DNA from: Peptoniphilus vaginalis
Lineage (GTDB): Bacteria; Bacillota; Clostridia; Tissierellales; Peptoniphilaceae
Assembly: GCF_900176605.1 (NCBI RefSeq)
Contig: NZ_FXLP01000005.1
Location: forward strand, 124,001 to 188,000
Reading direction: 5' to 3'
DNA length: 64,000 nt
The position numbers were made by a program, and so were the translations under genes. The notes under the pieces were generated by a model that did not search any database, was not told where the DNA came from, and saw only the letters and a list, made by a program, of their open reading frames with translations. Shown piece by piece: positions 32,657 through 51,206 of the stretch. Position 1 is the stretch's first letter. Every line of letters starts with the position of its first letter.

Positions 32657-34138
32657 ATGAAAAATAAAAAAATTTATATATCTCTAGTATTTTTATTATC
32701 TTTATTATTCTTAACAAATTTTGTATTTGCGGATAATGAAAGCACACCAGAGAAAAAAGAAATTAATTTAGAAGATGGTTGCTATGAAATTCCAATCAAA
32801 TTGTGGCATGCCATTGAAGAAAAACCTAGTATGGGTAACAAGGCCCTTATACAAAGAGCCGAGATAGAAGTGAAGAACAAAGAAGCAAACTTATACATAG
32901 GGTCAGACAAGATGGAATATATGTCCATAACAGCGTCCTTGGTAAATATTTACTTCCAAAAGGAAGATGGAATTTATCGCAGGGCAGAAGCAGGTTGCTA
33001 TGACCTAGAAGTACCTAAGGAAAAGGACAAAAGACCAAGAGTATTTAGGACATCCCTAATTAATATGGATGAAATGACAAAGGTCTATGTAGATCCAAAG
33101 GTAGAGCCCATGGGGGACGAACCAATAAGGGCAAGAATAAAATTAGACTTTGACAAAATAAAAAAAATAAATGAAAGTGAAGCAACTTTAATAAAGAAGT
33201 TTAAAGACGGACCAAAGAAACCAGACTTTAATTCAAAGGAAGCTGGAGAAGTACAAAACAAAAACTTAATAGTCAACTACGGGCCAGAAACATTTAAGGA
33301 AGAATTTTCATTTTACGGGAACAAATTATCAGGCAAGCAGGCAGAAGAATTTACAAAGTCCTTTGATAAATTAGATCAAGTGAATGTTTTTAAGATTGAG
33401 TTTTTAGGGCCCCTAGAAGAAATAACAGGCAAGGAAGAAAGCATTCAAGCAAAGAGAAAAAAGATTTATGCGAACAAAGAATTTGATTTAAAATTACCTC
33501 TTTTAAAATTCAAAGGACAAGACAAGCTAAGCCTTTATGAAGTAAAGAATGGAGAAAAAAAGAAGATAAATTACAAAGTCAATGGAGATTACCTTGAATT
33601 TAAGACAAAAGATTCAGCAATCTTTATAGTGGTGAAAGGTGCTGGCTCAGGTGGGCAAGTAAATAAGCTTATAGATAATACAAATTTACCTACACTAAGC
33701 AATATAAGTACAAGCCCAAGTAGCTCAAAGATAGAAAGGGCAAAGGCCTTTATGGCGACAGTAAAAAAACCACAGGCACAAAAAATAACAAGCTCTTCAG
33801 ATTCCTCATCTCCTATGCCAGTAGAAGGACCACAAGTTAGTTCAACACCACTAAGCACAAGTCCACCTTCTATAGGTTCGCTACAAAGTAAAATTGCAAG
33901 CCAAGAAAACAAGGGAGCATCCTCCAAAGAAAATAAGAATAAAGAGGGTGGATTAGAGGGACAAGAAATCGAAGAAAAAGAATCAAAGGGCATCATTATT
34001 TTAATACTCCTAATATTTATAGGATTAAATGCAACAGCCTTTGTTGTAATTAGAAAAAATTTGCAAGAAGTAAAAGATATGAAAGATGAAATGATGTTTT
34101 TAGGAGGGCTAAAAGAAAATGAAAAAAATAATAAATAG
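32657..34138 (+). CDS. Membrane-anchored NEAT-like heme-binding protein
   Basis: 493 residues with a signal peptide (1-25). One NEAT-like domain (about 36-170) has GCYEIPIKLWHA, SMGNKALIQRAEI (Met59) and VYVDPKVEPMGDEPIRARI (Met152). The usual proximal Tyr pair of NEAT domains is absent, and the two Met positions are conserved across the related proteins in this window. A second beta-rich segment (about 215-330) precedes a Ser/Pro/Gln-rich spacer (about 335-440). A C-terminal transmembrane helix (about 446-467) has a basic cytoplasmic end. No sortase signal is present. It overlaps shp by 20 bases. It probably passes heme to Shp or to the lipoprotein. Confidence 0.85.
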   Translation: MKNKKIYISLVFLLSLLFLTNFVFADNESTPEKKEINLEDGCYEIPIKLWHAIEEKPSMGNKALIQRAEIEVKNKEANLYIGSDKMEYMSITASLVNIYFQKEDGIYRRAEAGCYDLEVPKEKDKRPRVFRTSLINMDEMTKVYVDPKVEPMGDEPIRARIKLDFDKIKKINESEATLIKKFKDGPKKPDFNSKEAGEVQNKNLIVNYGPETFKEEFSFYGNKLSGKQAEEFTKSFDKLDQVNVFKIEFLGPLEEITGKEESIQAKRKKIYANKEFDLKLPLLKFKGQDKLSLYEVKNGEKKKINYKVNGDYLEFKTKDSAIFIVVKGAGSGGQVNKLIDNTNLPTLSNISTSPSSSKIERAKAFMATVKKPQAQKITSSSDSSSPMPVEGPQVSSTPLSTSPPSIGSLQSKIASQENKGASSKENKNKEGGLEGQEIEEKESKGIIILILLIFIGLNATAFVVIRKNLQEVKDMKDEMMFLGGLKENEKNNK

Positions 34139-35081
34139 CCTTTGTCTTATGGCTCTCATTTTTATAAGTCTAATAAATGTTACCTTTGCCTATTCACAAG
34201 AAATAGCAAAGGCAACACCTTACTATATCCATCCGGTTACAGGAGTCATAGAGGACCCCGGTAACAATCCAGGAATAGGACAGGGTATGACAGAAAATGT
34301 AGTATGTCCACAAGCCTTGGTAGAAACAACAGATGATGGAAGAATATTTTTGTCAGTCCGTTATAACCTAGCCAACTATATAAAAAATGAAACCTTCGCA
34401 GTCCAAAATTATGGCGACAACAGTTTCATTTCTGTACCAGCAGAAGTTACAGGAAAGACAGCAGAAACACGAGATTACAGATTTGAGATACCAAGCAAAA
34501 ATGTAATCGTAAGGGCAACATTTTTTGTAGGACCAATGGGAAGGGATGTAATATTTTACTACACAATATCAGACCTTGTTAAAGGTAACACAGACTTTGC
34601 AACCCTTCAAAATGCTTCTTCAAGACACACAAATAAACAAGAAGTAGCAGCGGGAGCACCACAGGCACAGGCAAATATTCCCAAGACAAATACAAAGAAC
34701 ACTATACCTAACCTAAGCAATTTAAAACCAATAGACAATAGCGAGCAAGTTGGAGAAGTTTTACAAGCTCCTAACCAAGGAGAAGTAATAGAACAAAAAC
34801 CAGTTAACTCAAAATTTTCTGCTGGTGACTTGGGTTATGACCACGGACTATTAACAAAGGATTCTCCAATAATTAAAAAATTATATTATTCAGATGACCA
34901 AGATGAAAAAGAAACATCTAAGACAAAATTAGGCAAAATAACCTTGGCTTTTATTTATGGCTTAATAGGTCTATTTGTAATATTAACAGGAGGATTTATC
35001 ATACTAGCCCTTCTATCATATAACTACAAGAACAAAGTAGAAGATGAACTAGAAGAAAGAAGGAGAAACATCTATGAATAG
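34119..35081 (+). CDS. shp: Shp-like cell-surface heme-binding protein
   Basis: 320 residues: signal peptide (1-24), heme-binding Shp domain (about 33-160), low-complexity spacer (about 165-270) and a C-terminal transmembrane helix (about 277-300) with a charged tail, the same topology as streptococcal Shp. GIGQGMTENVV (Met57) and VGPMGRDVIFYY (Met140) match the positions of the two axial Met ligands of Shp (Met66 and Met153 there). The start overlaps the NEAT-like gene, and the end overlaps the binding-protein gene by 8 bases. In streptococci Shp hands heme to HtsA, whose counterpart is the next gene. Confidence 0.85.
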   Translation: MKKIINSLCLMALIFISLINVTFAYSQEIAKATPYYIHPVTGVIEDPGNNPGIGQGMTENVVCPQALVETTDDGRIFLSVRYNLANYIKNETFAVQNYGDNSFISVPAEVTGKTAETRDYRFEIPSKNVIVRATFFVGPMGRDVIFYYTISDLVKGNTDFATLQNASSRHTNKQEVAAGAPQAQANIPKTNTKNTIPNLSNLKPIDNSEQVGEVLQAPNQGEVIEQKPVNSKFSAGDLGYDHGLLTKDSPIIKKLYYSDDQDEKETSKTKLGKITLAFIYGLIGLFVILTGGFIILALLSYNYKNKVEDELEERRRNIYE

Positions 35082-35994
35082 GATAAAAAAAATTCTAAGC
35101 ATTCTTCTTGCAAGTCTATTATTAACGTCTTGCGTAAGTCAGAAAACTGGCAAGAAAGCAAACAATGGCGAGCTGAGAATAGCAGCAACATCAATGGCAA
35201 CAGTTTATATTATGGAAAAATTAAACATAGACCTAGTTGCAGTACCAGACTCAAAGATCGATCCAATGCCAGAACGATATAAGGATGTCCCTAAGGTAGG
35301 GATGGCAATGACACCAGACATAGAAAAATTAAAACAAATAAATCCAGACTATGTATTCTCACCAGTGTCCTTAATCTCAGACCTACTTCCAAAATACAAG
35401 GCAGCAGACCTAGACTATGGATTTTTGAATCTAAACAACACAGATGGAATGTATAAGTCAATAGATGATCTGGGAAAATTACTTAACAGAAAAAAAGAGG
35501 CCAAAGCCTTAATTGACGACTACAAAAAATTCATAGACGACTACAAAGAAAAGCACAAGGACAAAAAAGCACCAAAAGTATTAATTCTTATGGGTTTGCC
35601 AGGGTCCTATGTAGTAGCAACAGAAAACTCCTATGCAGGAAGCCTTGTAAAACTTGCAGGTGCAGAAAATGTATATGAAGGGACAAATCAACAATTCATA
35701 ACAATAAACACAGAAGATATGTTGAAAAAAGACCCAGACATGATCCTTAGAACAGCCCATGCTCTACCAGATCAAGTAATGGCAATGTTCAAAAAAGACT
35801 TTGCAGAAAATGACATTTGGAAACACTTTAGGGCAGTTCAAGAGGGAAAGGTTTACGACCTTGACTACAAAAAATTTGGTATGAGTGCGAAATTCAACTA
35901 CAAGGAAGCCTTAAATGACTTAGACAAACTCTTCTATGGAAAAGACTCAAATGAAGTAGGAAATACAGGTGATAAGACAAATGAAAAAAAATAA
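35074..35994 (+). CDS. isdE: Heme ABC transporter substrate-binding lipoprotein (IsdE/HtsA type)
   Basis: 306 residues with a type II signal ending LLTSC (lipid-attached Cys20). It is a TroA-like two-lobe binding fold with IAATSMATVYIMEKLNIDLVAVP, then VGMAMTPDIEKLKQINPDYV. Met79 (in GMAMTP) and His229 (in RTAHALPD) fall at exactly the residue numbers of the heme ligands reported for HtsA, and the surrounding sequence also agrees. It is coupled by overlap to Shp upstream and to the permease downstream. Confidence 0.92.
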   Translation: MNRIKKILSILLASLLLTSCVSQKTGKKANNGELRIAATSMATVYIMEKLNIDLVAVPDSKIDPMPERYKDVPKVGMAMTPDIEKLKQINPDYVFSPVSLISDLLPKYKAADLDYGFLNLNNTDGMYKSIDDLGKLLNRKKEAKALIDDYKKFIDDYKEKHKDKKAPKVLILMGLPGSYVVATENSYAGSLVKLAGAENVYEGTNQQFITINTEDMLKKDPDMILRTAHALPDQVMAMFKKDFAENDIWKHFRAVQEGKVYDLDYKKFGMSAKFNYKEALNDLDKLFYGKDSNEVGNTGDKTNEKK

Positions 35995-36970
35995 AATCAT
36001 CCTAGTTTACACAATTTCAATCCTGGTCCTAATAGGACTCATACTTTATTCAGCAAAAACAGGCTCCATAGAAATGACCTTTGGCAAATTAATAAAAGGC
36101 TTGTTCATAAAATATGATCCCGACGTAGCGACAATATATGACCTTAGATTTCCAAGAATAATAATATCAATACTAGCTGGGGCAGCTCTTGCAACATCAG
36201 GAGTTCTCCTTCAAGCAGTAATGCAAAACCCCCTCACAGATCCAGGGATAATAGGCATATCATCAGCAGCAAGCCTATCAACAAGCCTTGTAATGATATT
36301 ATTCCCAGGACTATATGCCTTTAGCCCATTCTTTTCAGTAGTGGGAGGACTCCTAGCCTACCTCTTAATATATTCACTAGCCTGGAATGGAGGATCCAAC
36401 CCAATAAAACTAATCCTCGTGGGTGTAGCACTTAATATGACCCTTATGGGAGTAAACGAAGGAATAAAATCCATGATGGGTGGCAACCTAACGAACGTTC
36501 AATCAATAATCGAAGGCAATGTAGCACAAAAAACTTGGGCAGATGTAAAAATTATGGCAGTTTATGGAATCCTATTTCTAATAATATCACTCTTCACAAT
36601 AAGGTCAGCAAACCTACTTCAACTAGAAGACCAAACAGCACAAGCCTTGGGAGTAAATGTAAATAGAGATAGATTTATCCTAGCCTTAATAGGAATAATA
36701 CTAGCATCAGTATCCACAGCCATAGTTGGTGTAATAGGATTCTTAGGTCTAGTAGTGCCACACATAGCAAGAATAATTCTTGGCTCAAACCACAAGAACC
36801 TAATACCCTATTCCATGATACTGGGAGCAATAACCCTCCTCCTATCAGACACCTTGGGAAGAGTGATAGCCTACCCTTACGAAATAAAGCCATCAGTAGT
36901 AATGACAGTAGTGGGCGGAATATTCTTTATAGGCCTATTAAAAGTAGGAGGAAAAAATTATGGAAATTAA
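35981..36970 (+). CDS. FecCD-type heme/iron ABC transporter permease
   Basis: 329 residues from the ATG at 35981; a GTG at 35969 is possible but gives a poorer leader. The FecCD/BtuC family is indicated by about nine to ten helices, the DLRFPRIIISILAGAALATSGVLLQAVMQNPLTDPGIIGISS block and the GFLGLVVPHIARIILGSNHKNLIP coupling loop. It overlaps the lipoprotein gene by 14 bases and the ATPase gene by 11. Import of heme is inferred from the neighbouring lipoprotein. Confidence 0.93.
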   Translation: MKKNKIILVYTISILVLIGLILYSAKTGSIEMTFGKLIKGLFIKYDPDVATIYDLRFPRIIISILAGAALATSGVLLQAVMQNPLTDPGIIGISSAASLSTSLVMILFPGLYAFSPFFSVVGGLLAYLLIYSLAWNGGSNPIKLILVGVALNMTLMGVNEGIKSMMGGNLTNVQSIIEGNVAQKTWADVKIMAVYGILFLIISLFTIRSANLLQLEDQTAQALGVNVNRDRFILALIGIILASVSTAIVGVIGFLGLVVPHIARIILGSNHKNLIPYSMILGAITLLLSDTLGRVIAYPYEIKPSVVMTVVGGIFFIGLLKVGGKNYGN

Positions 36971-37721
36971 TCACTTATTTTTCGCCTATGACAAAAATAT
37001 GGTTATAAAAGATCTTTCTCTAAAAATAGAAAAAAATAAAATCACAACCCTCCTAGGTGCCAATGGCTGTGGCAAGTCAACACTTTTGAAATTAATAACA
37101 AGAGTAGAAAAACCAAAAATGGGATTCATAAGTCTTGACGGCAAAAATATAAAAAATATAGAGAGAAAAGAATTTGCAAAAAAAGTTGCCATAGTTAGAC
37201 AAAAAAATCAAATAGCAGGCGACATCAAAGTCGAAGAACTTGTTGCCTATGGAAGAAACCCCTACCTAGGTTTTATGCAAAAGCCAAACCAAGAAGACAA
37301 AAACAAAATAAATGAAGCAATAGAAGTTTGTGGCTTAGAAGAAATAAGAAAAGAGAGAGTCAACTCCCTATCAGGTGGGCAAGTCCAAAGGGCATGGATA
37401 GCCATGGCAATAGCACAAGATAGCGAGCTACTTCTCTTAGACGAACCAACCACCTACTTAGACATCAAATACCAAATAGAAATTTTAAAACTAATAAGGA
37501 ACTTAAATAAAAATCTTGGCAAGACAATAATCATGGTCCTTCATGACATCAACCAGTCCCTAGAATATTCAGACACCATAGTGGGAATGATGAAGGGGAA
37601 AATTGAATTTCAAGGAAAGGCAAGTCAAGTCTTGACAGGAGAAAATATAAGTAAGATCTACGACACAAAACTAAAAATAATAGACATTGAAGATAAAAAA
37701 TTTGTATTTGCAGAAGATTAA
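36960..37721 (+). CDS. Heme/iron ABC transporter ATPase (FecE type)
   Basis: 253 residues with Walker A GANGCGKSTLLKL, signature LSGGQVQRAWIAMA, Walker B LLLLDEPTTYLD and the switch His in MVLHDINQS. It is coupled by overlap to the permease, and together with the lipoprotein it completes a class II importer. The family serves siderophores, cobalamin and heme; the Shp and NEAT-like partners argue for heme. Confidence 0.93.
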   Translation: MEINHLFFAYDKNMVIKDLSLKIEKNKITTLLGANGCGKSTLLKLITRVEKPKMGFISLDGKNIKNIERKEFAKKVAIVRQKNQIAGDIKVEELVAYGRNPYLGFMQKPNQEDKNKINEAIEVCGLEEIRKERVNSLSGGQVQRAWIAMAIAQDSELLLLDEPTTYLDIKYQIEILKLIRNLNKNLGKTIIMVLHDINQSLEYSDTIVGMMKGKIEFQGKASQVLTGENISKIYDTKLKIIDIEDKKFVFAED

Positions 37722-37730
37722 GGAGGAAAA

Positions 37731-38240
37731 GTGAAGGGACTAATACTATATTCATCAAAGACAGGCAACACTAAGAGAATGGCAGAAAAAATTTATGAAG
37801 TCTTAAAGAAAGAACACCTAATGACTATAAAGGACATAAGAAATGCACCAAATATAAAAAATTATGACTTTATACTCTTGGGTGCCTGGATAGATAGAGG
37901 GACCTTAGAGCCAAAGACACTAAAATTCTTAAAGACTATAGAAGATAAAAAACTTGGCTTATTTGCGACCTTGGGAGCAATGCCAGACTCAGAACATGGA
38001 AGAAATGTGATAAAAAATTTAGAAGACCTATTAAAAGATAGAAACTCACTAGGACAGTACATATGTCCAGGACTAGTAGACCCGAAGATGATAGAAAAAT
38101 TAAAAGGAATAACAGGACTAGTAGTTCCAAAAAAGATAAAAGAAAAAATGATAGAAACATCTTATGCGTCTAGGTATGCAACAGATGAAGAACTAGAAGA
38201 AGCAGCAAACTACTTCTATGAAAAATTAATTAATTTATAA
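37731..38240 (+). CDS. Flavodoxin family protein of the heme operon
   Basis: 169 residues, GTG start with AAGGAGG in the stop of the ATPase gene. The FMN phosphate loop YSSKTGNTKRMAE is at residues 7-19, and the ring-binding loops LGAWIDRGT and ATLGAMPDS follow. Flavodoxins in anaerobic heme loci can supply electrons for radical-SAM heme degradation (HmuF in Fusobacterium) or reduce iron. No radical-SAM gene is in this window, so the partner would be elsewhere. It probably reduces heme or a heme-derived product after import. Confidence 0.82.
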   Translation: MKGLILYSSKTGNTKRMAEKIYEVLKKEHLMTIKDIRNAPNIKNYDFILLGAWIDRGTLEPKTLKFLKTIEDKKLGLFATLGAMPDSEHGRNVIKNLEDLLKDRNSLGQYICPGLVDPKMIEKLKGITGLVVPKKIKEKMIETSYASRYATDEELEEAANYFYEKLINL

Positions 38241-38338
38241 AATTAGTGGGTGGTTGGGTGGGATTAGGAAAGTACGTTTATAACCTTATAAGGATTAGTT
38301 ATGAAAAAATAAATAATATAAAGAAAGGATAAAAAAAT

Positions 38339-38947
38339 ATGAAATATTTAAAGAAAATTAGTTTATTACTATTAGTATTAATGATGTTAGTTCCAACTTT
38401 TACATTTGCTCAAGAAATGAATCTAGAAGCCATAAAGGAGCAAATTAAAGAAACTATAGACTACTCTGATTCAGAACTGTATGGATTTAAATATTCTGAT
38501 AGATCCGTAAGGGAAGTAGCAGATTTTGCTATATATCACATAACAAAAGCAAAACTTTCTATGGCTGATGATGCATTCAATAAAGATTTATCAAAAGTTG
38601 AAGATAAGGGCGACAGCTACGAAATAACTTTATATACAAAGCCAGTTAGTAAAGAAATGCTTAATAATGTATACTACGCAGATTGTACAGGAATTACACC
38701 CGTTATAGATGGAAAAGAAATTAAAGTAGAAGCCTTTGGTTCTAAAGAAGCTGTAAATAATAAAAATAAGACTGTGCCTGAAGGTTTTAAATTCACTGTA
38801 TTAAAGGATGACCTAGAAGAAGAAAGTATAGGAGAATATAATAATTATTTTAAAATTAAATTTACAACTAATTTAGCTGACTCTGGATTTTTAGGAAAAA
38901 TCGGTGCAGCTATGATGAAACCAGAGGCAAGATTTTTTGTAAAATAA
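38339..38947 (+). CDS. Small secreted NEAT-like heme-binding candidate
   Basis: 202 residues with a signal peptide (about 1-24). A helical-looking segment (about 28-65) is followed by a NEAT-like domain: AKLSMADDAFNKD (Met75) and a C-terminal GFLGKIGAAMMKPEARFFV strand. The latter resembles the last strand of the NEAT-like domains in the 43261 and 45922 proteins (YARPTIYW, ACPTIDW). No membrane or wall anchor is seen, so it may be a free hemophore. The family match is weaker than for its neighbours. Confidence 0.6.
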   Translation: MKYLKKISLLLLVLMMLVPTFTFAQEMNLEAIKEQIKETIDYSDSELYGFKYSDRSVREVADFAIYHITKAKLSMADDAFNKDLSKVEDKGDSYEITLYTKPVSKEMLNNVYYADCTGITPVIDGKEIKVEAFGSKEAVNNKNKTVPEGFKFTVLKDDLEEESIGEYNNYFKIKFTTNLADSGFLGKIGAAMMKPEARFFVK

Positions 38948-39007
38948 ATTATAATAAATAACTAATCCTTAAAAATTTACAATTCAAAAGATGTTTATTG
39001 TGAATAG

Positions 39008-39044
39008 TAATAGATGTATAGCGAATAGACCTATACATCTATTA
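39008..39044. repeat. 14-bp inverted repeat in the leader of the first SLH receptor gene
   Basis: TAATAGATGTATAG (39008-39021) and CTATACATCTATTA (39031-39044) are perfect complements with a 9-base loop. There is no T-run behind it, and the start codon is 28 bases downstream. It could be a weak terminator of the 38339 gene, a leader hairpin or an operator. Confidence 0.6.
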
Positions 39045-39071: not shown

Positions 39072-42000
39072 TTGAAAAAAAGTATAAATTTTATTTTATT
39101 TTTACTGGTATTTTTATTCGCAAGTGGGTCTAATGTATTAGCAGCAGACCATTCTGGTATAATTCCAATTACTGGAGATAAGAGAGCACACTTTGAAATC
39201 CATCCAGAAGTATATAAAAGATGGGCTCAAGGAAAAGAAGTATCTACGGATCAAAAGGTAATTTATCCCCTATTTGATGAAAGTAGATTAAGGATGTCAG
39301 GCAAAAAAATACCTGATGATGATCAAAACTTTAAAGAATTTAGAGAAAAACATAAAGATGAAGCAGCTTTTAATAAAGCGGATGCGCCTCAATGGAATGC
39401 TTATGAATTAGACTTAATGCAAAATGTTGGGTACGCAGTTTATGGTAATTTTGATATAAATAGTTCTGGTATTGATGACGGAAGTATGTATAACATTTGG
39501 CCTGAACAAGTTGAAATGTATTTATCATACTTCGATAAATCCACTAATTCATGGAGTGAACCTAAGAAATTAGATAAAAGAAGAGGTTATGACGACCAAG
39601 GGAAAGGATTTTTGGTAATACAGGATTATAAATCAAGCCATGATGGAAGGAAATATTCAATAGATCTTAGCCTCCAACCGGTAGATTATTACCAAAGTAC
39701 ACATGACAAGTTTAGGATATATATATTTCAGGGTTGGCCTAAGCCAATACCTAAAGACTTGCTTCCGGGGACTTATAATATTCCCCTATCTATAAGGTAT
39801 TCAAATTCACCAGGAAAATATTCAATGGCAGATGGTGCAGTAGGAGATAATGGAAAACTAATTGTGGGGCAAGATGGTTCTATTAAGTTGAGAATAAAAT
39901 TCAATGCAATGACATTGAGTGATCCTGCTTATACAGGAGGAAAACCTATTACAGGGCATCTCATGAAACTGTGGACTTATAATTCAGTAAATGATTTTGA
40001 TCAATATATGAAAGCTCCTACAGTTTTTACAGCAAGGGAAATAGACTTAGATAATCCACAATACTTAAAGAAATACTATTCAGAAGAAGTAGATGGTATT
40101 GAATTATCTTTTCCGGAAATTTATGAAATACCATTAAAATATGAAAATGGTTCGACAAATTATGAATCTCAAAAACTTTTTAAAGTAAAGGTTGATGCGA
40201 TGGGTAATTCTTTACAAAATTTCAATCTTCTAATGAGATGGGAAGATATGAAATTGGAAAAGTTAGATTTGCAAAGTGGTAAATATAAAGCTTTGCAAAT
40301 AATAAGTTTACCAGCAAACCAAGCTACGCTTGATACTTTATGGGATAAGGAAAATAATAAGTTAAAATACACGAAAGAGCAATACATTGATGAACTATTC
40401 AAAGGAAACTATAAATCACTTAGATTCGATCCTGGAAAAAGCATTATACCAATATACGATTTGGAAATAAAAAAGAATAAAGCGGATATTACCGTGTATT
40501 GGGCTGAACAATACAAGAAAGAAAAAAAGATTAGAGAGACTGGGATAGTAAAAATTGATGATTCTAAACCCATCCAATATAAGTCATCTGATGGAAGTAT
40601 AAAAGATGCAGAAGTATTGGAAAGCAAGGATTTTACCGTTACAAACAAAAAGAACACTTATAAAAATAGAATAACAAAGATAAAGTTAAAGGATGTTCCT
40701 TTGTCAATTGGTGATGAAGATGAATATGGAGATGAAAAGATAGGATTAATTAATGCTAGGTTTATAAGTGTAGAAGATAATGGAAGAATGACTTTAGCTC
40801 CTAAGAAAACAGAAGATCCTGTAGAAAGGATGTTTAAAATACCAAACTATGATATATGGAAAAAGGTATTAGTAGAAAAGATAGAAGAAATCAATAAAGA
40901 TAAATTAAATCAAGCAATAGAGGATGCTAAAAGCATAAAAATAGGGAAACACTCTGGGGAGGATTTTAATAAGCTAACTAAAGCCATTGAATCAGCAGAA
41001 AATGTAGCAAAGAATGAAACAGAAAATCAAAATAATGTAAATGAAGCGCTCAAAGCTTTGAACAAGGCTATAGAAGAATTTACTAATTCAAAAATTGAAA
41101 ATCCAAAACAAGTAGAAAGCTTAGAAGTCCCTGTTATGCTATGGCATGCTTACCAAGATAATCCTTCTATGGGTAATGGTGCTTTAGTTCAAAAGGCAAA
41201 AATTGAAGAAGAAAATGGCAAAACTTATATGACTATAAAATTAAAGGGTCTTGATTTTATGAGTATGCGTGGCCATTTATTACAATTTTGGACATACAAA
41301 GAAAATGATTTTAACTCTGACAAAATAGAATCGACAATAATTGAGAACAAAAGAGATAAAGGACTAGGAAATGAAGAAAAAGAATTTCCATCTTTATTCA
41401 AATTTGAGATAGATCCTAAGTTTAAAACACAAGATGGAGAAATTTATTGTCGTGTAAGAGTAGATGCTATGGAAAAACTAGGTGGAGCTGAACAAAATGC
41501 AAAATTGAAAATTATGGGATCTAAAGCAAAAAAATGGACTGGATGGGGAGATGAAAACCAATCTAATCCAAGCAACCCAAGTAATCCTAGCACGCCAGGA
41601 TATTCCTTCCAAAATTTTGCTATAGAAAGATCTGCGCTAGGCTCTGCTATGGCAAGTGCAAGTGCATCTATGAGTAAGGGAGCTGACTCCAACTTAGTAG
41701 CAGCAATGGCAAGGGCAGGTGCAATTGCTAACAACCCATACGCATCAAGAGAAGAAATATTAAGTGCTACACAAGCCCTAAACAATGCAGTTATTAACAA
41801 TAAGGGTAGTATGAATAACCAAAACAATAATAATTCTTGGGGCAATAACAACCAAGGCTGGGGCAACAACTCCGGATGGGGAAATAACAATTCTTCATGG
41901 GGAAGCTATGGCAATAACAACCAAGGCTGGAATAACAACTCATCATGGGGAGTTTACAACAACAACCAAAACAACAATAAAAACAATGGACCAGTAACAA

Positions 42001-43019: not shown

Positions 43020-43025
43020 AAATAT

Positions 43026-43260: not shown

Positions 43261-45906
43261 ATGAAAAAAATTAAAAGTTTCATATTTTTTAGCTTATTAA
43301 TCTTTATATTAACAGGTCAGACTTTTGCAAAGACAAAGCTTGACTACAGGAATTTGCCAGATGGCGAATATAGTGTAAAGATTGAAGTTAGAAAAGATTT
43401 TTATATCAAAAAACCTAAATTATCCATGATGGATGATGCTGTGGAAAAACCAGCAAGTATTGTAGTAGAGAATGGTAATTATTTTCTCAAGTTTAAAATG
43501 TTACCTTTAGAACTTGCACAATTCAAAGCAAAAGGTTATTTAGGGGATATTAATTATATTGATTCTAAAAATAATGAGAATAAAGTTGAGGTTTTAAAAT
43601 ATTATGATTTTGAAGATGAACTTTCAAAAAAATATAATTTAAAATATCCTGAAACAATTATGTATCCTATTGAAAAAGAAAATATTTCTAAAATACAAGA
43701 AACTAGAGTAAAGGTATTTGTTCCAATAATGGAAGAAATAGGTAAAAAAGGCGAAGAAATGGGGACTCAATATGCAAGACCAACTATATATTGGGACACT
43801 CTTCAAGAAAAGGATTCAAGCGAATTTGTAAATATCAATTTAGCGGATACAAAATTTGCACAACCAAAACTAAGGAAGATAGTTGACCAAGTTGGAAAAG
43901 TTGTTGAATACCAAGGGAAAAAATACTTATATATTAACTTCTTCAATTTAAAACTTGATAGTAGTGGATATGATGATGGTACAGAAACTTTAGAATACTC
44001 CTACGGAGAAGACCAAACACGTTATAGCTTACAAAGTAAAGTAATAGAAGAAGGAAAAATTGGTGGCAGATACCAACTATCAGAAGCCTATATTCCAATA
44101 GATGGGGCTGAAGAAATTTATCTTTATGGTAAATTCCAAACAACAAAGTACAAACAAGAAAGATATGAGCAATCTGCTAAAATTAATTTAAGCCTATTGA
44201 CACCAGCAAAATCCAATTCAGATGACTTAAAACTTGAATTTGTAAAACAAGATGATGTAAGTGTAAAGAAAAACAAGTCTAATAAACTTCCTTATGATTT
44301 CAATATAGGAGGAGTCTTATATTCACCTTACACATCAATAGATGGAAATAAGTTTAGATTAACAAGAGATGGTGAAGATGTAAGGTTTATATTTAATAAA
44401 AATTCATTCCTTACAAGTAATATAAGAAATATTAAATATACCCTAGATGGGAGTGAACCTAATGAATCTTCCTTTGATGCAGATTTAAGTTTTTACAATC
44501 AAAGTAAGTTTCATGAAGACTCTTATTATAATGTTGAAATTGATCCCTTTAATATGACAAATATATCTTCTATGGGTGGAAATGTAACTTTAAAGGTAAA
44601 AGCCTTTGATAAAAATGGTATGGGAGTAGGTAATACCCAAACTTATGTTATACCTTACGACAAGGAAACTATATCAGAAGTCAAGGGAGATACTATGCCA
44701 GACCTAGGATGTCCTATGATTTTAAGCACTGGTAAAAAAGCTGCATTACCAAAGAATTCAATGATATATGCAGAGGAATTATCAGACTACAATATGCAGG
44801 AGGAATTAAACAATCTTGTAGAAGAAGAGGGGATTTATAATCCGAGCCTTGTAAAGTTAAGCCTATATGATGGCAATAAGCCTTTAGAATTAAATTATAA
44901 TGGTTCATGGAATGCCAATGTATGTCCTCTTGCCACAGTAAAACTAAAGGGAAATAATTTAGGCAATTATTTCGCTTATGAATATAAGGATGGTAAGTTA
45001 ATTCCATTGGCAACAAAGGCAAGCCCAAGGGAACTTGCATTTAATATTTCAAGTAACCAAGGATATTATGTTATTGGACAAGTTGATAAAAATAGTGTTA
45101 GGAAAATGGCAATAAATCTATTGTCTAATAAGATTAAAGAAGCAGAAGCTTATTTAAACAGCGGAGAAGTAAACCTATACTCACTTATCTTAGAAGGAGA
45201 TATAGAAAAGGCGAAAAATGACCTTGGAAAATTTAAAACTCCTTATATCTGTTTAAGTGGAGTTGAAAAGATTGAAAGAACTATGAACTTAGCAAAATCT
45301 TCTGGTGATGAATCCCCAGAATTTTATAAGGAAAAGGCTAAGGTATTAGTCCAAGTAGCAAATGAAATATTAAATAAAAATATTTTAAATAAGTCTAGTG
45401 AAAATGAACTACAAGGGACAAGAGATAGACTTCAATATGCTATTAGTAATAATGACCTTAATAGTCTAAGGGATTCTATAAAAAATCTCGATAAGGCCTT
45501 AAATAATCTTTCATATAAGGGTAAGGGACAAGCTGTAAATATAAATATACTAAAGGAAAACTCTAATCAAAGATCTATGGCAAGTAATGTTTTTGAAAAT
45601 CAAGGAAAATTGTTACAAATAGATGGAAAATATTATTTGGAACTTGGCTTAAAAACAATGTACTTTGGAAATATTAGAGCCCACCTACTTGATCTTGAAG
45701 TTTTTGAAAATGGTCTAGGTTCAAGGCTATTAAATCTTACTCCAATATCAAAGTTTTCAGATACAGGACTCCAAGGAGTTGAATTTTACAACAAAAAAAT
45801 TCTTATTGAATTAGGAGATAGACCAAGTAGTGAATATTATATAAGAGTTAAAAATGATGCAATGGGAAATGCAAGACCTGTTGCTAGATTAATAATAAAT
45901 TATTAA
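43261..45906 (+). CDS. Large secreted multidomain NEAT-like protein without SLH
   Basis: 881 residues. Signal peptide (1-22); NEAT-like 1 (about 28-178, LSMMDDAV and VKVFVPIMEEI...YARPTIYWD); a second beta domain (about 195-318) that looks NEAT-derived but lacks the SM motif; a chitobiase-C-type element IKYTLDGSEPN in a beta domain (about 340-470); another domain (about 475-610); a helical region (about 620-760); and a C-terminal NEAT-like domain (about 765-881, SMASNVF and VKNDAMGN). There is no LPXTG, SLH or membrane helix, so surface retention must rely on partners. The mosaic design recalls streptococcal Shr, a hemoprotein receptor, but without sequence-level proof. Confidence 0.8.
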   Translation: MKKIKSFIFFSLLIFILTGQTFAKTKLDYRNLPDGEYSVKIEVRKDFYIKKPKLSMMDDAVEKPASIVVENGNYFLKFKMLPLELAQFKAKGYLGDINYIDSKNNENKVEVLKYYDFEDELSKKYNLKYPETIMYPIEKENISKIQETRVKVFVPIMEEIGKKGEEMGTQYARPTIYWDTLQEKDSSEFVNINLADTKFAQPKLRKIVDQVGKVVEYQGKKYLYINFFNLKLDSSGYDDGTETLEYSYGEDQTRYSLQSKVIEEGKIGGRYQLSEAYIPIDGAEEIYLYGKFQTTKYKQERYEQSAKINLSLLTPAKSNSDDLKLEFVKQDDVSVKKNKSNKLPYDFNIGGVLYSPYTSIDGNKFRLTRDGEDVRFIFNKNSFLTSNIRNIKYTLDGSEPNESSFDADLSFYNQSKFHEDSYYNVEIDPFNMTNISSMGGNVTLKVKAFDKNGMGVGNTQTYVIPYDKETISEVKGDTMPDLGCPMILSTGKKAALPKNSMIYAEELSDYNMQEELNNLVEEEGIYNPSLVKLSLYDGNKPLELNYNGSWNANVCPLATVKLKGNNLGNYFAYEYKDGKLIPLATKASPRELAFNISSNQGYYVIGQVDKNSVRKMAINLLSNKIKEAEAYLNSGEVNLYSLILEGDIEKAKNDLGKFKTPYICLSGVEKIERTMNLAKSSGDESPEFYKEKAKVLVQVANEILNKNILNKSSENELQGTRDRLQYAISNNDLNSLRDSIKNLDKALNNLSYKGKGQAVNINILKENSNQRSMASNVFENQGKLLQIDGKYYLELGLKTMYFGNIRAHLLDLEVFENGLGSRLLNLTPISKFSDTGLQGVEFYNKKILIELGDRPSSEYYIRVKNDAMGNARPVARLIINY

Positions 45907-45921
45907 AGAGGAGATAATAAA

Positions 45922-46539
45922 ATGAAAAATATTTCAAAAAATTTAGTAGTTGCAGGCTTAGGCCTTGCAATAATAGCAAGTGGTTCTGTTTTTGCAGAAG
46001 GTAGCAAGACATTAAATGATAATAATAGTTTATTTGGTGGAAATCTTGTAAAAGAAGCTTCAGTAAGAGCTAACGATTTAAATTATCAAAAGCTTCCTGA
46101 AGGTGAATATAAAGTTAATATGAAAGTTATGAATGCAAATCCTAATAAAAAAGATCATGAATCTATGATGAATGGAGCTGTTATTGCAGAAAAAACAAAA
46201 GTAATAGTAGATAGTGCTGGAAATTATTATTTAGATATAACTTTGCAACCCATTTTAGTAGAATATAATAACGAAAAAGTTATAGGCTATTTAGATTGGT
46301 TAAAATACTATGATGATGAAGAAAACGAGCAACCATCTACTGTATTATCTTGGCAATCTGACTTAAAAGGAAATAAACATCCTAAAGAAATCAAATTCCC
46401 AATATCTAAACCATCTGAAATTGTGCAAAAAGAATATGTTGAGGTATACTCAAAGGCCATGGCTGAAAAAGCTATGAAAGGAGCTCAAGTTGCATGTCCT
46501 ACTATAGACTGGTCAAATTTTAGCAGGATATCAAGATAG
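45922..46539 (+). CDS. Small secreted single NEAT-like protein
   Basis: 205 residues: signal peptide (about 1-25), an Asn-rich short spacer and one NEAT-like domain (about 50-200) with GEYKVNMKVMN, ESMMNGAVIAEKTKV and the final VEVYSKAMAEKAMKGAQVACPTIDW. It is closest to NEAT-like 1 of the 881-residue protein 15 bases upstream, so it may be a released duplicate of that domain. With AGAGGAG in front and no anchor, it would act as a diffusible hemophore. Confidence 0.78.
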   Translation: MKNISKNLVVAGLGLAIIASGSVFAEGSKTLNDNNSLFGGNLVKEASVRANDLNYQKLPEGEYKVNMKVMNANPNKKDHESMMNGAVIAEKTKVIVDSAGNYYLDITLQPILVEYNNEKVIGYLDWLKYYDDEENEQPSTVLSWQSDLKGNKHPKEIKFPISKPSEIVQKEYVEVYSKAMAEKAMKGAQVACPTIDWSNFSRISR

Positions 46540-46558
46540 TTTTAAATAATATGAAATG

Positions 46559-46606
46559 TGCAATTCATATTATAGGTGTTTATAAATTTCTATAGTATGA
46601 ATTGCA
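46559..46606. terminator. 17-bp inverted repeat between NEAT-like genes
   Basis: TGCAATTCATATTATAG (46559-46575) and CTATAGTATGAATTGCA (46590-46606) pair with one G-T, around a 14-base loop. There is no T-run. It may be a terminator or a leader structure for the gene at 46637. Confidence 0.6.
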
Positions 46607-46636
46607 TTAATATTACTTATTGTGAGGTCGGTTATT

Positions 46637-49600
46637 ATGAAAAAAAAACTATGTTATGTTCTATTACTTCTTTTTATATTATTTCCATTAAATATATTTG
46701 CCGAGAAGAGTATAGACATAAAAAATGTTGACGAAGTAAAACAATACTATATAAATTTAGTTCCTAAAATAGAAGGAATAAACAAGCAAGAATCTGAAAG
46801 TATAATAACAGAAATAAATAAATGTCAAACACCATCTTTAGTAAAAGGCTGTGTTGAAGATTATGTTTTCAAAGATATAGATAAAATAAAAGGATATGAG
46901 GTAGTAAAATCAAATAAAAAGTTTAGTGAGTGTAAAGAAATTTTTGATATATTAGAATATGCATTAACAGAAGATGTTAAAGCTGTTGAAGAAATGGAAA
47001 AAATGGACTTATTAACACTAGATTATGTTAATGGTAAGATAAAATTATTTAATCAAATATATAAAGAATTTGTTGAAAAATATAATAAATACAAAAAAGC
47101 TGGTTTAAATAATGCTCCACTTATAATAGATAATCTTAAAAATGGTGAATATGTAGTTGATTTAAGTATATATAATGATATTACAGGACAAATGCTTGGA
47201 AGAAGATTACCTGAACCTAAATTATCTATGATGGATGATGCAGTATACAAACTTGGGAAAATTGTTGTTAAAGATGGAAAAAAAGAATTAATAATAAAAA
47301 TGATTCCATTGCATCAAAAATTGAGTGGATTACATTTTAGTGGATATTTGTTAAACTTAAAAGTTAAAGATAAACACGAAAAATTCAATCCCGCAAGTGT
47401 CGACTCAAGATATGAGGATTATGAAGATTCTTTATTAAAAGAATTCAGAAAAGATGCTAATGAAAGGTATCCAAAAGTAATACGTTTACCATTAGATAAT
47501 ATGGAAACTAAAACATGGGAGATGTATAGAGATTTTAAAACTAAGAAAAATATAGAGAAATATAAAGAGTTATATAACAAAAAATACACTGATGCCAAGA
47601 GTATACAAGTAAGAGTCTTTGTCCCTATAATGGAACATATACAAAAAGATATGGGAGATCAATTCGCTAAACCCACAATTTTTACTAATAGTATAGAAAA
47701 ATATAATCCCGGTAATAGAGATACCCTAAAAAATAAGATTGCAACAGTGAATATAAATAAATATAAAGATAATTCTAATAAGGATAAAGTGGATGAATTA
47801 AAAAAAATATTGGAGAAAGCTAAAGTTGCAAGTGACAGTTTTATTCTTACTGATGAAGAAGTTCAAGAATATATAAATAAAATAGATAATTTAGTTAAAA
47901 CACTAGATGCAGACACGCAAGCACCACTAAAAAAAGAAGCTTTAACAAAAGAAATAGAAGAAGCTAAGAAAGTTGAACAAGGCAAGAAGACAGACGAAGC
48001 TTTTAATGCTCTTAAAGCCGCAATAAAATCTGCTGAAGAAGTTTTAAGTAGTGCAAGTGAACAAACTGCAATAGATGGTGCGGTAAATGAATTAAATAAA
48101 GCTATACAAACTTTTAACTCTAGTCAAGATAAGAAAGTAGAATTAAACAAAACAGCTCTTGACGCTAAGATAAAGGATGCAGACAAGATAAGCCAAGGTA
48201 AAAAAAGCGAAGATGCTTTTAAAACTTTAAAGGCTGCGATTGAAGCCGCTAAAAATATTTTAAACAGTGCTAATACTCAAGAGCAAATCAACGAAGCTTT
48301 AACTAATTTAAACAAAGCCATAGATGCTTTTAATAACAGTGCTGATGTAACTGTTACACCGGAAATAAGAGAAAAAGTTTATACTATACCTGTTAAGCTT
48401 ATGCACTTAGTTCAAAATAAGGAGTCTATGGGCAATAAAGCCCTAATTTCTCCCGCTAAGGTAAGCATAAAAGGCAATGATGTAAATATTGATTTAACTT
48501 TCAAAGGTATTGAAGTACCTTTGGGCACAAATAAATTCTACGGACATTTAACTAATTTATTTAGCTATAAGGACAATATCCTTAGTGAAGAGGCAATTGA
48601 GGCTGAAGTTTTAGAACGAGTGGAAGACAATGCCATGGACGGCTTTAAAACGAAATTCCCCAAGGTATTTAGAATTAAACTTACTAAGGATGCTTTTGAT
48701 AACTTAAAAGACAACACTCTTTATGTAAAAGTTTGGGTAGATGCTATGGACAGTATAGCAGGTCGTGGTCCTGGTTCTGGAGAACAAAATGCAAGAGTTG
48801 TATTTGACAAGAGCAAAATGACTGAAGATAAACCAGGCGGAGAAGTGCCAACACCTACTCCAAATGTACCGAATAGGGAGGCTGTTATAGATGCTTTGAG
48901 GAGATATTCTAATTTAGGTGGACCTCAATACACTTATCAAAGCAATATGAGATATGTAAATGCTTATAATTCTTTAATGGGCTTATTATCCAAATCGATA
49001 GTTACAGAAAGCGAACTTAAATCTGCTATTGATGAACTTAAATCTGCTGTAACTAGCCTTACTTTAGATACAAGTAAGCCAAATAATTCAGGCAATAACA
49101 ACCAAGGATGGGGCAATAACTCCGGATGGGGAAATAACAATTCTTCATGGGGAAGTTATGGCAATAACAACCAAGGCTGGAATAACAACTCATCATGGGG
49201 AGTTTACAACAACCAAAATAACAATAAAAATAATGGACCAGTAACAATCCAATATGAAGTGCCTGTTGAAGTTATTCACGCACATGAAAATAGGTATTCT
49301 ATGGCTAATGGGGCAATAAACCACACAGCAAGAGTAGAAGAAAGAAATGGACAGTTCAGGTATAGTGTACAATTTGGACCAATGCAAAGGGAATTTGCTG
49401 GCAAGACATTTATAGGCAACCTATATAACCTATTTATCTACGATGGAAGCAAGTATCAAGCAGAGCAATCATCTGGAAATGTATGGTCATGGGTTATGAA
49501 TGGCAAGTATGACAAGGTTAAAATCGCAGTTTGGGTTGATGCTATGGATGAAATAGCAGGCAAGGGACAAGGTGGAGGAGAGCAAGATGCAATCCTATCC

Positions 49601-50272
49601 TTTAACTGGAACAATGCAAGAGAAGTAGGAAGAGTTGGCGGAAACAACAACAACCAAAACCAACAAAATCAACAAAACCAAAATCAACAAAAGCAAGCAC
49701 CACAAGTAGTACAAAATAACAGCGCATCCAATAACTTTACAGACACAAGTGGACACTGGGCTAAGACAGCTATTGATTACGTTGTAAGCAAGGGATACTT
49801 TGCAGGTCTAAGCAATACTGAGTTTGGACCAAACAAGTCCATAACAAGAGGACAATTTGTAAGTGTTCTAGGAAGAATGTTGAAGGTCAATGTAAATGAC
49901 TACAAGGATCAAAACTTTAAAGATGTTAAGTCAGGAATGTATTACAGTCCATACATCACATGGGCAAACAAAGTTGGAATAGTATCAGGAGTAGGTCAAG
50001 GAAACTTTGCACCTGATAAAGAACTAACAAGAGAAGAAATGGCTGTAATGATGACTAAGTTCTTAAAGGTATCAGGCAAGAATCTCAATGCCAAGGGTAA
50101 TACTAATGGCTTCAAAGATGAAGAAAAGATTCAAAGCTGGGCTAAGGATTCTGTAAAAGAAATGGCAAGACTTGGTATAGTAAGTGGTATGGGCGATGGA
50201 AGCTTCGCACCAAAATCTCAATTTACAAGAGCACAAGTTGCACAAGTTCTTTACAATATTGATCACAATTAA
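46637..50272 (+). CDS. SLH-anchored multi-NEAT-like heme receptor (1211 residues)
   Basis: The start is the ATG at 46637 with GAGGT upstream; a GTG at 46622 would add five residues and displace the signal peptide. Order: signal peptide (1-22); helical region (about 25-155); NEAT-like 1 (about 160-360, LSMMDDAV and VRVFVPIMEHI); two FIVAR repeats (about 435-500 and 503-568); NEAT-like 2 (about 575-730, SMGNKAL and VKVWVDAMDSI). Then a FIVAR-like segment (about 750-810), an Asn/Trp/Gly linker, NEAT-like 3 (about 875-1000, SMANGAI and VAVWVDAMDEI), a Gln/Asn tract and three SLH repeats (about 1032-1209). It is a paralogue of the 39072 gene, sharing an almost identical C-terminal third but different N-terminal modules. 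Confidence 0.88.
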   Translation: MKKKLCYVLLLLFILFPLNIFAEKSIDIKNVDEVKQYYINLVPKIEGINKQESESIITEINKCQTPSLVKGCVEDYVFKDIDKIKGYEVVKSNKKFSECKEIFDILEYALTEDVKAVEEMEKMDLLTLDYVNGKIKLFNQIYKEFVEKYNKYKKAGLNNAPLIIDNLKNGEYVVDLSIYNDITGQMLGRRLPEPKLSMMDDAVYKLGKIVVKDGKKELIIKMIPLHQKLSGLHFSGYLLNLKVKDKHEKFNPASVDSRYEDYEDSLLKEFRKDANERYPKVIRLPLDNMETKTWEMYRDFKTKKNIEKYKELYNKKYTDAKSIQVRVFVPIMEHIQKDMGDQFAKPTIFTNSIEKYNPGNRDTLKNKIATVNINKYKDNSNKDKVDELKKILEKAKVASDSFILTDEEVQEYINKIDNLVKTLDADTQAPLKKEALTKEIEEAKKVEQGKKTDEAFNALKAAIKSAEEVLSSASEQTAIDGAVNELNKAIQTFNSSQDKKVELNKTALDAKIKDADKISQGKKSEDAFKTLKAAIEAAKNILNSANTQEQINEALTNLNKAIDAFNNSADVTVTPEIREKVYTIPVKLMHLVQNKESMGNKALISPAKVSIKGNDVNIDLTFKGIEVPLGTNKFYGHLTNLFSYKDNILSEEAIEAEVLERVEDNAMDGFKTKFPKVFRIKLTKDAFDNLKDNTLYVKVWVDAMDSIAGRGPGSGEQNARVVFDKSKMTEDKPGGEVPTPTPNVPNREAVIDALRRYSNLGGPQYTYQSNMRYVNAYNSLMGLLSKSIVTESELKSAIDELKSAVTSLTLDTSKPNNSGNNNQGWGNNSGWGNNNSSWGSYGNNNQGWNNNSSWGVYNNQNNNKNNGPVTIQYEVPVEVIHAHENRYSMANGAINHTARVEERNGQFRYSVQFGPMQREFAGKTFIGNLYNLFIYDGSKYQAEQSSGNVWSWVMNGKYDKVKIAVWVDAMDEIAGKGQGGGEQDAILSFNWNNAREVGRVGGNNNNQNQQNQQNQNQQKQAPQVVQNNSASNNFTDTSGHWAKTAIDYVVSKGYFAGLSNTEFGPNKSITRGQFVSVLGRMLKVNVNDYKDQNFKDVKSGMYYSPYITWANKVGIVSGVGQGNFAPDKELTREEMAVMMTKFLKVSGKNLNAKGNTNGFKDEEKIQSWAKDSVKEMARLGIVSGMGDGSFAPKSQFTRAQVAQVLYNIDHN
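49091..50272 (+). repeat. Long direct repeat, copy B (linker-NEAT3-SLH segment)
   Basis: Second copy, in the 1211-residue paralogue. The two copies are in direct orientation about 7.2 kb apart, so recombination between them would delete the intervening NEAT-like genes and fuse the two receptors. Confidence 0.85.
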
Positions 50273-50284
50273 GTTTAATAATTT

Positions 50285-50313
50285 AAAGGGACTTTTAAAT
50301 TAAGAGTCCCTTT
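50285..50313 (+). terminator. Short hairpin between the SLH gene and the last NEAT-like gene
   Basis: AAAGGGACT and AGTCCCTTT form a perfect 9-bp stem with an 11-base loop. No T-run follows, so partial readthrough is likely. Confidence 0.65.
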
Positions 50314-50333
50314 AGATAAAAATGAGGTGTAAT

Positions 50334-51206
50334 ATGAAAAAAATTATTTTATCATTATTGTTAGTTTTAGTTTTATTACCTAATGCTATTTTTGCTGCAA
50401 GTTCTTATGAAGTACCAGTAAAGTTAGTTAAGTATGGTGAACCAGACAAGGATTCTATGGGTAATCCTTCTTTAAAACAAGTTGCCCAAGTTGAAGAAAA
50501 GGATGGTAAATTTATTTACAATATTTTTCTAAAGAAGATGGAATTTATGAATATGGAAGGTGAACTTACAAATTTATTTATCTATGATGGCGATAAGGAC
50601 TCTAAGAGGGTTGAAACTAAGCAAAGCCCTATTAATGGTGAATACACAAAGAAGCACGAGTTTGTAAGAACTAATCCAAAGGAAGATAAAATTCTTGTTG
50701 CTGTATGGGTTGATGCTATGGATGCTATTGCTGGCGGTGGAAAGGGTTCAGGAGAACAAAAGGCTTACCTAAAGTTTGACTGGGCTAATGCAAAGGCCAT
50801 GGAAGCTAAGGATTCTAAACCTGCAAGCAAGAAGGATGTAAAGGCTGAAAAATCTTCAGCTCAGTCTGATATTAAAATTTTTGTGTCAGACAAGGAAATC
50901 AAACCAGAGACTCCAGCTTACATTGAAAATGGAAGGACAATGGTTCCTCTAAGATTTATCTCTGAAGCTCTTGGTGAAAAAGTTGATTGGAAGGCTGATA
51001 CAAAAACTGTTATCATTGGTGATAACAAAGCAAGTCTTGTAATTGGTGAAAAAGAAATTGAAGCTAATGGAAAGAAAATTGCAATTGATTCACCAGCAGT
51101 GATTAAGGATGCAAGAACTTTTGTACCCCTAAGAGCAATTTCAGAAATCTTAGGTGCTAAAGTAGATTGGGATGCTTCAACAAGAAGTGTAAAGATAAGT
51201 AAATAA
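50334..51206 (+). CDS. NEAT-like protein with copper-amine-oxidase-like wall modules
   Basis: 290 residues from the ATG at 50334, which has GAGGTG upstream; an upstream ATG at 50322 overlaps that ribosome site. Signal peptide (about 1-21), one NEAT-like domain (about 22-150: KDSMGNPSLKQVAQV and VAVWVDAMDAIAG), a Lys/Ala-rich linker, then two copper-amine-oxidase N-terminal-like repeats (about 175-290: GRTMVPLRFISEALG and ARTFVPLRAISEILG). These modules also occur in the amidase at 5571 and the glycosidase at 60255, suggesting an alternative wall tether to SLH. Confidence 0.87.
   Translation: MKKIILSLLLVLVLLPNAIFAASSYEVPVKLVKYGEPDKDSMGNPSLKQVAQVEEKDGKFIYNIFLKKMEFMNMEGELTNLFIYDGDKDSKRVETKQSPINGEYTKKHEFVRTNPKEDKILVAVWVDAMDAIAGGGKGSGEQKAYLKFDWANAKAMEAKDSKPASKKDVKAEKSSAQSDIKIFVSDKEIKPETPAYIENGRTMVPLRFISEALGEKVDWKADTKTVIIGDNKASLVIGEKEIEANGKKIAIDSPAVIKDARTFVPLRAISEILGAKVDWDASTRSVKISK

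Follow-up and report, generated by a model that had tools for sequence, protein, structure and literature searches.

Shr of Streptococcus pyogenes, a single protein with two NEAT domains and a hemoglobin-binding part of its own, is the closest described relative of a set of NEAT domains encoded in Peptoniphilus vaginalis. The set lies at positions 32657-51206 of a 64,000-nucleotide stretch of this genome (contig NZ_FXLP01000005.1, positions 124,001 to 188,000), hereafter the window, where seven plus-strand genes encode proteins with NEAT-type domains: 32657, 38339, 39072, 43261, 45922, 46622 and 50322 (named by window position). According to the available part of the structural study of Shr, heme is coordinated by Met997 and Met1107 in the NEAT2 crystal and by Met390 and Met475 in NEAT1; replacing both Met residues with Ser abolishes binding by NEAT1 and drastically lowers heme binding by NEAT2 (PMC12796733). 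The same report, dated December 2025, describes Met ligation as seemingly characteristic of S. pyogenes and not of the NEAT domains of other Gram-positive bacteria (PMC12796733).

Another group of NEAT domains without the classical YxxxY motif comes from clostridia. ChtD and ChtE of Clostridium perfringens lack YxxxY, and between their strands 7 and 8 stands a conserved Met (PMC4143258; PMC5026354); they bind heme without the Tyr pair, and the Met residues of Shp are mentioned in the accessible text on them (PMC5026354). A 2014 survey, in its available part, reports YxxxY to be missing in all 51 domains of the clostridial group, proposes Phe-108 as the ligand and notes that Met-101, on the loop between strands 7 and 8, is highly conserved (PMC4143258). 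In the accessible sections of both papers the authors either favored Phe and gave Met a supplementary contact role, or did not settle the ligand, the 2014 survey doing both (PMC4143258; PMC5026354). The idea of a Met in clostridial NEAT domains is partly in print, then, and bis-Met ligation is already known in S. pyogenes; what is new here is its breadth. In the open-access literature we found no paper tying Peptoniphilus or the extended clostridial NEAT domains to Shr-type ligation. Judged from its sequence, the P. vaginalis locus is very likely a Shr/Shp-type heme acquisition system, in which 11 NEAT domains would grip heme between two Met residues and relay it inward.

Two methionine columns in the NEAT domains

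The seven proteins hold 12 NEAT domains, three each in 39072 and 46622, two in 43261 and one each in 32657, 38339, 45922 and 50322. A thirteenth domain, the Shp domain of protein 34119, carries both Met residues. The original prediction, made from the DNA letters and their translations, had counted about ten domains in seven proteins; the seven proteins stand, while the domain count was too low. Its description of the motifs holds: a Ser-Met string, SM-x-(N/D/S), stands near the start of all 12 domains, and a second Met, within VEPM, VDAM, VDVM, VPIM, NDAM or YSKAM, is found in 11, all but that of 38339. The classical YxxxY, which had been described as missing, is absent from the last strand of all 13 domains. 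In the stretch that begins 10 residues ahead of the second Met and ends 12 residues past it, the motif is absent in 12 of the 13, the exception being YVEVY in 45922, which lies on the preceding strand. Both Met columns are invariant in a MAFFT alignment of the 13 domains, an invariance that for 38339 is an alignment choice at the second column, since its usual place holds N/L and a Met-Met follows about 13 residues later. This Met-Met, which lies before the last strand, is kept in all eight distinct aligned rows, the window's included, and in seven of seven in a further comparison; 38339, with its second Met displaced, may bind differently. Cys or His ligands were rejected: the 13-domain alignment has no such conserved column, and the eight proteins, Shp included, hold 15 Cys in all. 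Met accounts for 124 of their 4926 residues (2.5 %).

Searched with a profile of the 13 window domains, the PDB sequences gave Shr NEAT2 (9W5Y) as the best match (E 2.6e-14). With a 108-row profile, whose rows were admitted only if both Met residues were present, the match reaches E 1.2e-41 (145.6 bits, profile positions 2-157 of 159), the next PDB match being IsdX2 at 42 bits. The Ser-Met and the VPIM Met of Shr NEAT2 align with the two window columns, and the spacing of the aligned residues in the 9W5Y chain, 110, equals 1107 minus 997. Shr NEAT1 (9W5Z) is matched over positions 3-51 only (E 6.5e-6). Both Shr domains are extended NEAT domains like those of the window, with the lip-helix Ser-Met and V-x-V-P-I-M before the last strand (9W5Y and 9W5Z, as far as described in the accessible text of PMC12796733). 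In a single FastTree run, for which the extended rows had been pre-filtered for both Met residues, Shr NEAT2 groups with clostridial domains in a 12-member clade (support 0.99).

Protein 34119 belongs to the Shp family (PF11545, 163.1 bits against a cut-off of 26.4) and matches S. pyogenes Shp (2Q7A) with both axial Met residues aligned (E 1.6e-22). Both are present in 15 of 15 family-selected Shp sequences, the window's own included. The NEAT domain of 32657, whose gene directly precedes that of Shp, shares the PMG register of Shp. The original prediction had cited Shp without noting this homologue in the locus and had not named Shr. In the profile comparison that it proposed, PF11545 gave no match to the seven NEAT proteins at E up to 1. 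The analysis shows the homology and the agreement of both Met columns with known ligands. Because these columns coincide with the residues that ligate heme in the Shr NEAT2 crystal and a true Shp stands in the gene block, two-Met, non-Tyr heme coordination across the set is well supported as a prediction. For 11 of the 12 domains, homology to a solved structure makes the bis-Met reading probable; the original prediction had extended it to the whole family, from which 38339, without the second motif, has to be set apart.

Structure prediction, which the original prediction had proposed with heme, covered the protein chains of two of the 12 NEAT domains. For the second domain of 46622, the AlphaFold2 model (108 sequences) has a mean predicted local distance difference test score (pLDDT) of 95.9 and a predicted template modelling score of 0.89; Met23 opens lip helix 23-27, and Met129 lies in helix 127-133 after strand 119-126. 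The model resembles IsdX2 NEAT5 most closely (Z 13.9, root-mean-square deviation 2.9 over 118 residues), followed by IsdA (Z about 11-12) and Shp (Z 8.5). Every one of the first 44 structural rows is a NEAT or Shp structure, and Z is 6.1 at row 45. This domain is predicted, then, to adopt the NEAT beta-sandwich. The Shr structure 9W5Y was not among the Foldseek matches listed, an absence that carries no weight as evidence. The model of 38339 is weaker (pLDDT 72, seven sequences); its first 32 structural rows are all NEAT with Z 5.1-7.6, below 8 and so in the range where a match may reflect a common arrangement only, and it is taken as NEAT-like because of the gap to the next row (4.8).

Conservation was surveyed in the open reading frames of the window and 99 further loci (L041-L139) with a profile built from the 11 regular window domains after both Met columns had been masked as X. 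The search found 277 distinct domains, 245 of which span both columns, and 242 of these have Met at both (231 of 234 without the 11 training domains). The proportion persists after clustering: 176/179 at 80 % identity, 120/122 at 60 %, 85/87 at 50 % and 48/49 at 40 %. Ser31, Met32 and Met138 rank highest in conservation in the 50 % set, two of them masked in the profile, and the next Met-rich column reaches only 37 %. In two of the three exceptions a Met follows 3-4 residues further on, as it does in the 32657 type, and one (in L085) is a real loss. Chance matches are rejected by this survey, by the clustering and by the Met content of 2.5 %. No YxxxY occurs in the 245 extended domains between three columns before the second Met and the end. 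Among the loci whose domains have both Met residues are some that carry the names Peptoniphilus, Peptostreptococcus or various Lachnospiraceae in their titles; the survey shows the pair to be conserved in clostridial loci. The surveyed loci are not a random sample, since Shp patterns, one of them including a Met, served to find L061-L139, and L041-L060 are 20 regions taken from those 33 genomes of the family that have NEAT matches.

Met-type and Tyr-type NEAT domains in two classes

Among 391 sampled genomes of Clostridia, the window's own class, 25 have NEAT matches (E 1e-3) and 22 have matches to the Shp model (E 1e-4); all 22 are among the 25, and six of them are partial, mostly NEAT domains that cross-match the Shp model. 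In a second class, presumably Bacilli (the presumed class of genome G642), NEAT occurs in 17 of 299 genomes. Shp was found in none of these 299, the search giving no match at all, which does not prove absence; the same model matched 22 of the 391 elsewhere. From 94 second-class matches, 85 domains of 16 of the 17 genomes were compared, the eight weakest and one outside the fetched stretches being dropped. The first Tyr column holds Tyr in 71 domains and Met in five, the latter from five genomes; the YxxxY string is present in 49. In one locus of the Tyr-type class (L175, G1148), several NEAT domains have GVMHHDV or a similar string close to the Tyr site.

For Clostridia, 99 PF05031 matches less 10 without the N-terminal part (eight of them in Shp genes) left 89, of which 65, including 10 of the window's own, had sequence. 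The Ser-Met string is present in 57 of the 65. A scan of residues 80-150 for YxxxY returned two strings, from the window's 43261 and 45922, which by eye are not on the last strand. At E 1e-7 the PF05031 model matches 48 of 108 related domains. In the P. vaginalis genome it gives 11 matches (E<=10), all inside this locus, and its cut-off of 32.8 bits is exceeded by none of them singly, three whole proteins exceeding it by summing. Ten matches from genomes outside both classes (G803, G860) show Ser-Met in nine and YxxxY in two, where it stands before PMG.

Compact clostridial NEAT domains often read SMA and VPMG; 14 of 18 have Ser-Met and none has YxxxY after residue 70. A joint alignment brought together 13 of these 18 (all but those of G350 and G416), the 15 Tyr-type domains listed first among those with YxxxY, and extended rows with both Met residues only. 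In it, each of the two Shr Met columns is occupied by Met in 12 of the 13 compact domains. ChtD and ChtE are probably of this compact type, unlike the extended domains of the window. The Met-101 of the 2014 survey may be the counterpart of the Shr ligand, because it stands seven residues before Phe-108 and the same spacing separates M and F in PMGNAEVKF of G314 (PMC4143258, available part).

Tyr-type domains (IsdA, IsdC, IsdX1, IsdX2) have the same fold (Z 11-14) and carry their Tyr ligand pair on the last strand, whereas the window Met lies about two residues earlier in the hairpin: in the joint alignment the Tyr of Tyr-type domains is two residues after the second Met column. The two ligand types would then be supplied from different parts of the hairpin, and we rejected a plain exchange of Tyr for Met at a single site, as the gaps of a Tyr-masked profile shift and the joint alignment puts Met two residues before Tyr. 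The original prediction of Met in place of the Tyr pair is therefore correct as to the missing pair and imprecise as to the place. In L051 (G108), a 1117-residue frame has a NEAT match together with Shp-model matches in two pieces (2-43, 43-145), possibly a link between the NEAT and Shp families. In L081, a Shp-IsdE-permease-ATPase block stands in a metagenome-assembled genome titled Thermacetogenium, a thermophilic genus not known to be host-bound.

The probable heme-uptake gene block and its surroundings

The order of genes in the block is NEAT protein 32657, Shp 34119, an IsdE-type lipoprotein, a FecCD permease, an ATPase and a flavodoxin (Table 1). In the lipoprotein, GMAMTPD/TAHALP aligns with GQPMEPN/LPHGMP of IsdE (2q8p), whose Met and His we take to be the heme ligands. 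The ligands of streptococcal HtsA are Met-79 and His-229 (PMC5026354, accessible part). The order NEAT protein, Shp, binding lipoprotein, permease and ATPase is that of the streptococcal shr-shp-siaABC (htsABC) operon, described in part in the available text of PMC12796733. Unlike there, the lipoprotein of the window scores as IsdE, and a flavodoxin and many extra NEAT genes follow; and unlike the two-NEAT Shr, the window spreads 12 domains over seven proteins, two of them SLH-anchored. This gene order is seen directly in the window and recurs in relatives: among 79 named Shp loci, several on contigs that end early, IsdE immediately follows Shp in 78, the order Shp-IsdE-permease-ATPase is kept in 75 and a NEAT frame immediately precedes Shp in 65. 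The nearest named Shp locus is that of P. gorbachii, with 99 % identity over the Shp domain.

Table 1. Domains and genes of the probable heme-uptake locus, with window positions and codons of the two Met residues
Feature	Position	Strand	Met codons	Evidence
NEAT domain, 32657 (493 amino acids, membrane-anchored, C-terminal transmembrane-like stretch)	32747..33172	+	32831-32833, 33110-33112	PF05031 E 1.9e-6, alignment, codons
Shp heme-binding domain, 34119	34224..34580	+	34287-34289, 34536-34538	PF11545 E 5e-48
IsdE-type heme-binding lipoprotein, axial Met and His conserved	35074..35994	+		TIGR03659 (IsdE) 363.9 bits, cut-off 298.65
FecCD-type permease	35969..36970	+		PF01032 E 8.7e-81
ATP-binding cassette (ABC) transporter ATPase	36960..37721	+		PF00005 E 1.9e-35
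Flavodoxin, weakly BilS-like	37731..38240	+		PF12641 E 3.2e-37; BilS 92.1 bits, below cut-off 155
NEAT-like domain, divergent, 38339	38516..38944	+	38561-38563; displaced AAMM ends at 38915-38917	AlphaFold2 pLDDT 72, structural matches, orthologues; PF05031 only E 0.093
NEAT domain A, 39072	39735..40259	+	39825-39827, 40200-40202	Window alignment, masked profile; missed by genome Pfam scan
NEAT domain B, 39072	41094..41540	+	41169-41171, 41469-41471	Pfam, alignment, masked profile
NEAT domain C, 39072, then three SLH domains	41976..42368	+	42054-42056, 42297-42299	
NEAT domain A, 43261, VFVPIME type	43333..43812	+	43426-43428, 43729-43731	
NEAT domain B, 43261, VKNDAMG type	45532..45900	+	45577-45579, 45862-45864	Alignment, masked profile
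Sole NEAT domain, small 45922 protein, probably secreted	46072..46533	+	46165-46167, 46459-46461	PF05031 E 2.3e-4
NEAT domain A, 46622	47114..47707	+	47228-47230, 47630-47632	Alignment, masked profile
NEAT domain B, 46622, modelled representative	48362..48832	+	48428-48430, 48746-48748	AlphaFold2 pLDDT 95.9
NEAT domain C, 46622, then three SLH domains	49223..49630	+	49301-49303, 49544-49546	
NEAT domain, 50322, then PF07833 domain	50391..50801	+	50457-50459, 50718-50720	PF05031 E 0.0032, PF07833 E 3.3e-36

Domain C of 39072, domain A of 43261 and domain C of 46622 are supported, like domain B of 39072, by Pfam, the alignment and the masked profile. The last 1.2 kb or so of the 39072 and 46622 genes (41829-43019 and 49082-50272) are 89 % identical in DNA, spanning the third NEAT domain, an Asn/Trp-rich linker and the SLH domains, a similarity that points to recent duplication or conversion. 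Stretches adjacent to NEAT domains in 43261 (43831-44250) and 39072 (39150-39735) have SSG(Y/I)DDG in common by eye and look like further domains of unknown kind. The flavodoxin is a possible partner in heme use; a relative of it occurs in 15 of the 79 named Shp loci, as if linked to heme use or reduction. Upstream, 28251-31611 encodes two exporter-type ABC proteins, possibly serving porphyrin traffic. In 13 of the 14 loci L061-L074, two or three frames with ABC ATPases, possibly the same exporters, lie on the same side of the NEAT gene. Directly before the heme genes, 31616-32449 encodes a 277-residue protein with a helix-turn-helix-like start by eye (best Pfam match E 0.084), a candidate regulator. 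A search of the window for a Fur box, with one consensus and up to three mismatches allowed, gave no match. The anaerobic heme cleavage model TIGR04107 gave eight matches in the genome, all below its cut-off; the same search matched 14 of 14 control genomes and is hence uninformative.

Competing explanations and significance

In the proposed mechanism, the first Met would sit in the lip helix (Ser-Met) and the second just after strand 7 (for example in VDAM), as in Shr NEAT1, Shr NEAT2 and Shp. The wall-bound SLH proteins 39072 and 46622 and the probably secreted 43261, 45922 and 50322 would catch heme, pass it to the membrane-anchored 32657 protein and Shp, and these would hand it to the IsdE-type lipoprotein, with Met and His, for import through the permease. 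We infer that the domains bind heme, that transfer runs in this direction and that both Met residues ligate at once.

Several observations weigh against this reading. Domain 38339 breaks the two-Met pattern. Eleven window domains are only 13-31 % identical to Shr NEAT2, so that the assignment depends on profile and motif, not overall identity, and the whole 46622 protein by itself matches Shr NEAT2 weakly (E 0.0037). Most surveyed loci were chosen via Shp or via NEAT matches of the same family. Among the 65 clostridial PF05031 matches, eight lack the Ser-Met string: by eye, four have the lip Met without Ser, three the second Met only, and one (G248:C39) appears to have neither, so that one-Met and no-Met sites do occur in relatives.

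Such sites bear on an unlikely alternative, in which heme is bound by one Met, that after strand 7, while the lip Met is structural or swinging and the site is five-coordinate or mixed. Three clostridial domains (two of G350 and one of G240) lack the lip Met by eye and keep the second, and in the accessible text on Shr, NEAT1 depends more on Met475 than on Met390 and NEAT2 manages with one Met (PMC12796733). In the extended class, however, the lip Met is if anything the more constant of the two, being present in 87 of 87 clusters, and the second Met in 85 of 87. Still less probable, indeed very much so, is that the domains mainly bind hemoglobin or another host protein, like NEAT1 of IsdB and IsdH, with the Met residues in the core and no ligand role. 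Several Staphylococcus NEAT domains do not bind heme (PMC4143258, available part), the multiple domains per protein allow a division of labor, and 38339 is without the usual second Met. Yet both Met residues fall on proven heme ligands and are among the top three conserved columns after masking, and the non-heme NEAT domains named in the accessible part of PMC4143258 lack the lip-helix motif, whose Ser persists here.

Of a different kind is the view that the clostridial branch owes its Met pair to inheritance, with no bearing on reduced heme, the link to anaerobes being a taxonomic coincidence; we consider the chances of this to be evenly balanced. It is compatible with the two-Met relay set out above and competes only with the reduced-heme rationale. 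Ligand type follows class (Tyr in 71/85 second-class domains; YxxxY in 0/245 extended and 0/18 compact domains; Shp in 0/299), and S. pyogenes, which tolerates air, uses Met. Inheritance alone does not explain a pair fixed across very divergent domains, but that fixation requires only heme binding, not reduced heme. The rationale of reduced heme in an anaerobe is no more than a correlation between two bacterial classes and may reflect plain inheritance. We regard as doubtful the wider proposal that anaerobic clostridia ordinarily use two-Met ligation in their NEAT domains, as a thioether relay from wall to membrane suited to reduced heme, of which Shr would be a twig acquired from clostridia and in which the Phe ligand of 2014 would really be the neighboring Met.

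Taken together with its relatives, the predicted two-Met system of P. vaginalis suggests that bis-Met ligation by NEAT domains is widespread in clostridia and not a streptococcal oddity, and at the sequence level the family contradicts the recent claim of a narrow range. It offers an answer to a question posed since 2014, namely how NEAT domains without YxxxY bind heme, and both the 2025 view of Met ligation as confined to S. pyogenes and the 2014 view of a Phe ligand become testable. The domains are small and well predicted, which would make for easy tests and allow Tyr and Met heme relays to be compared cleanly under anaerobic conditions.

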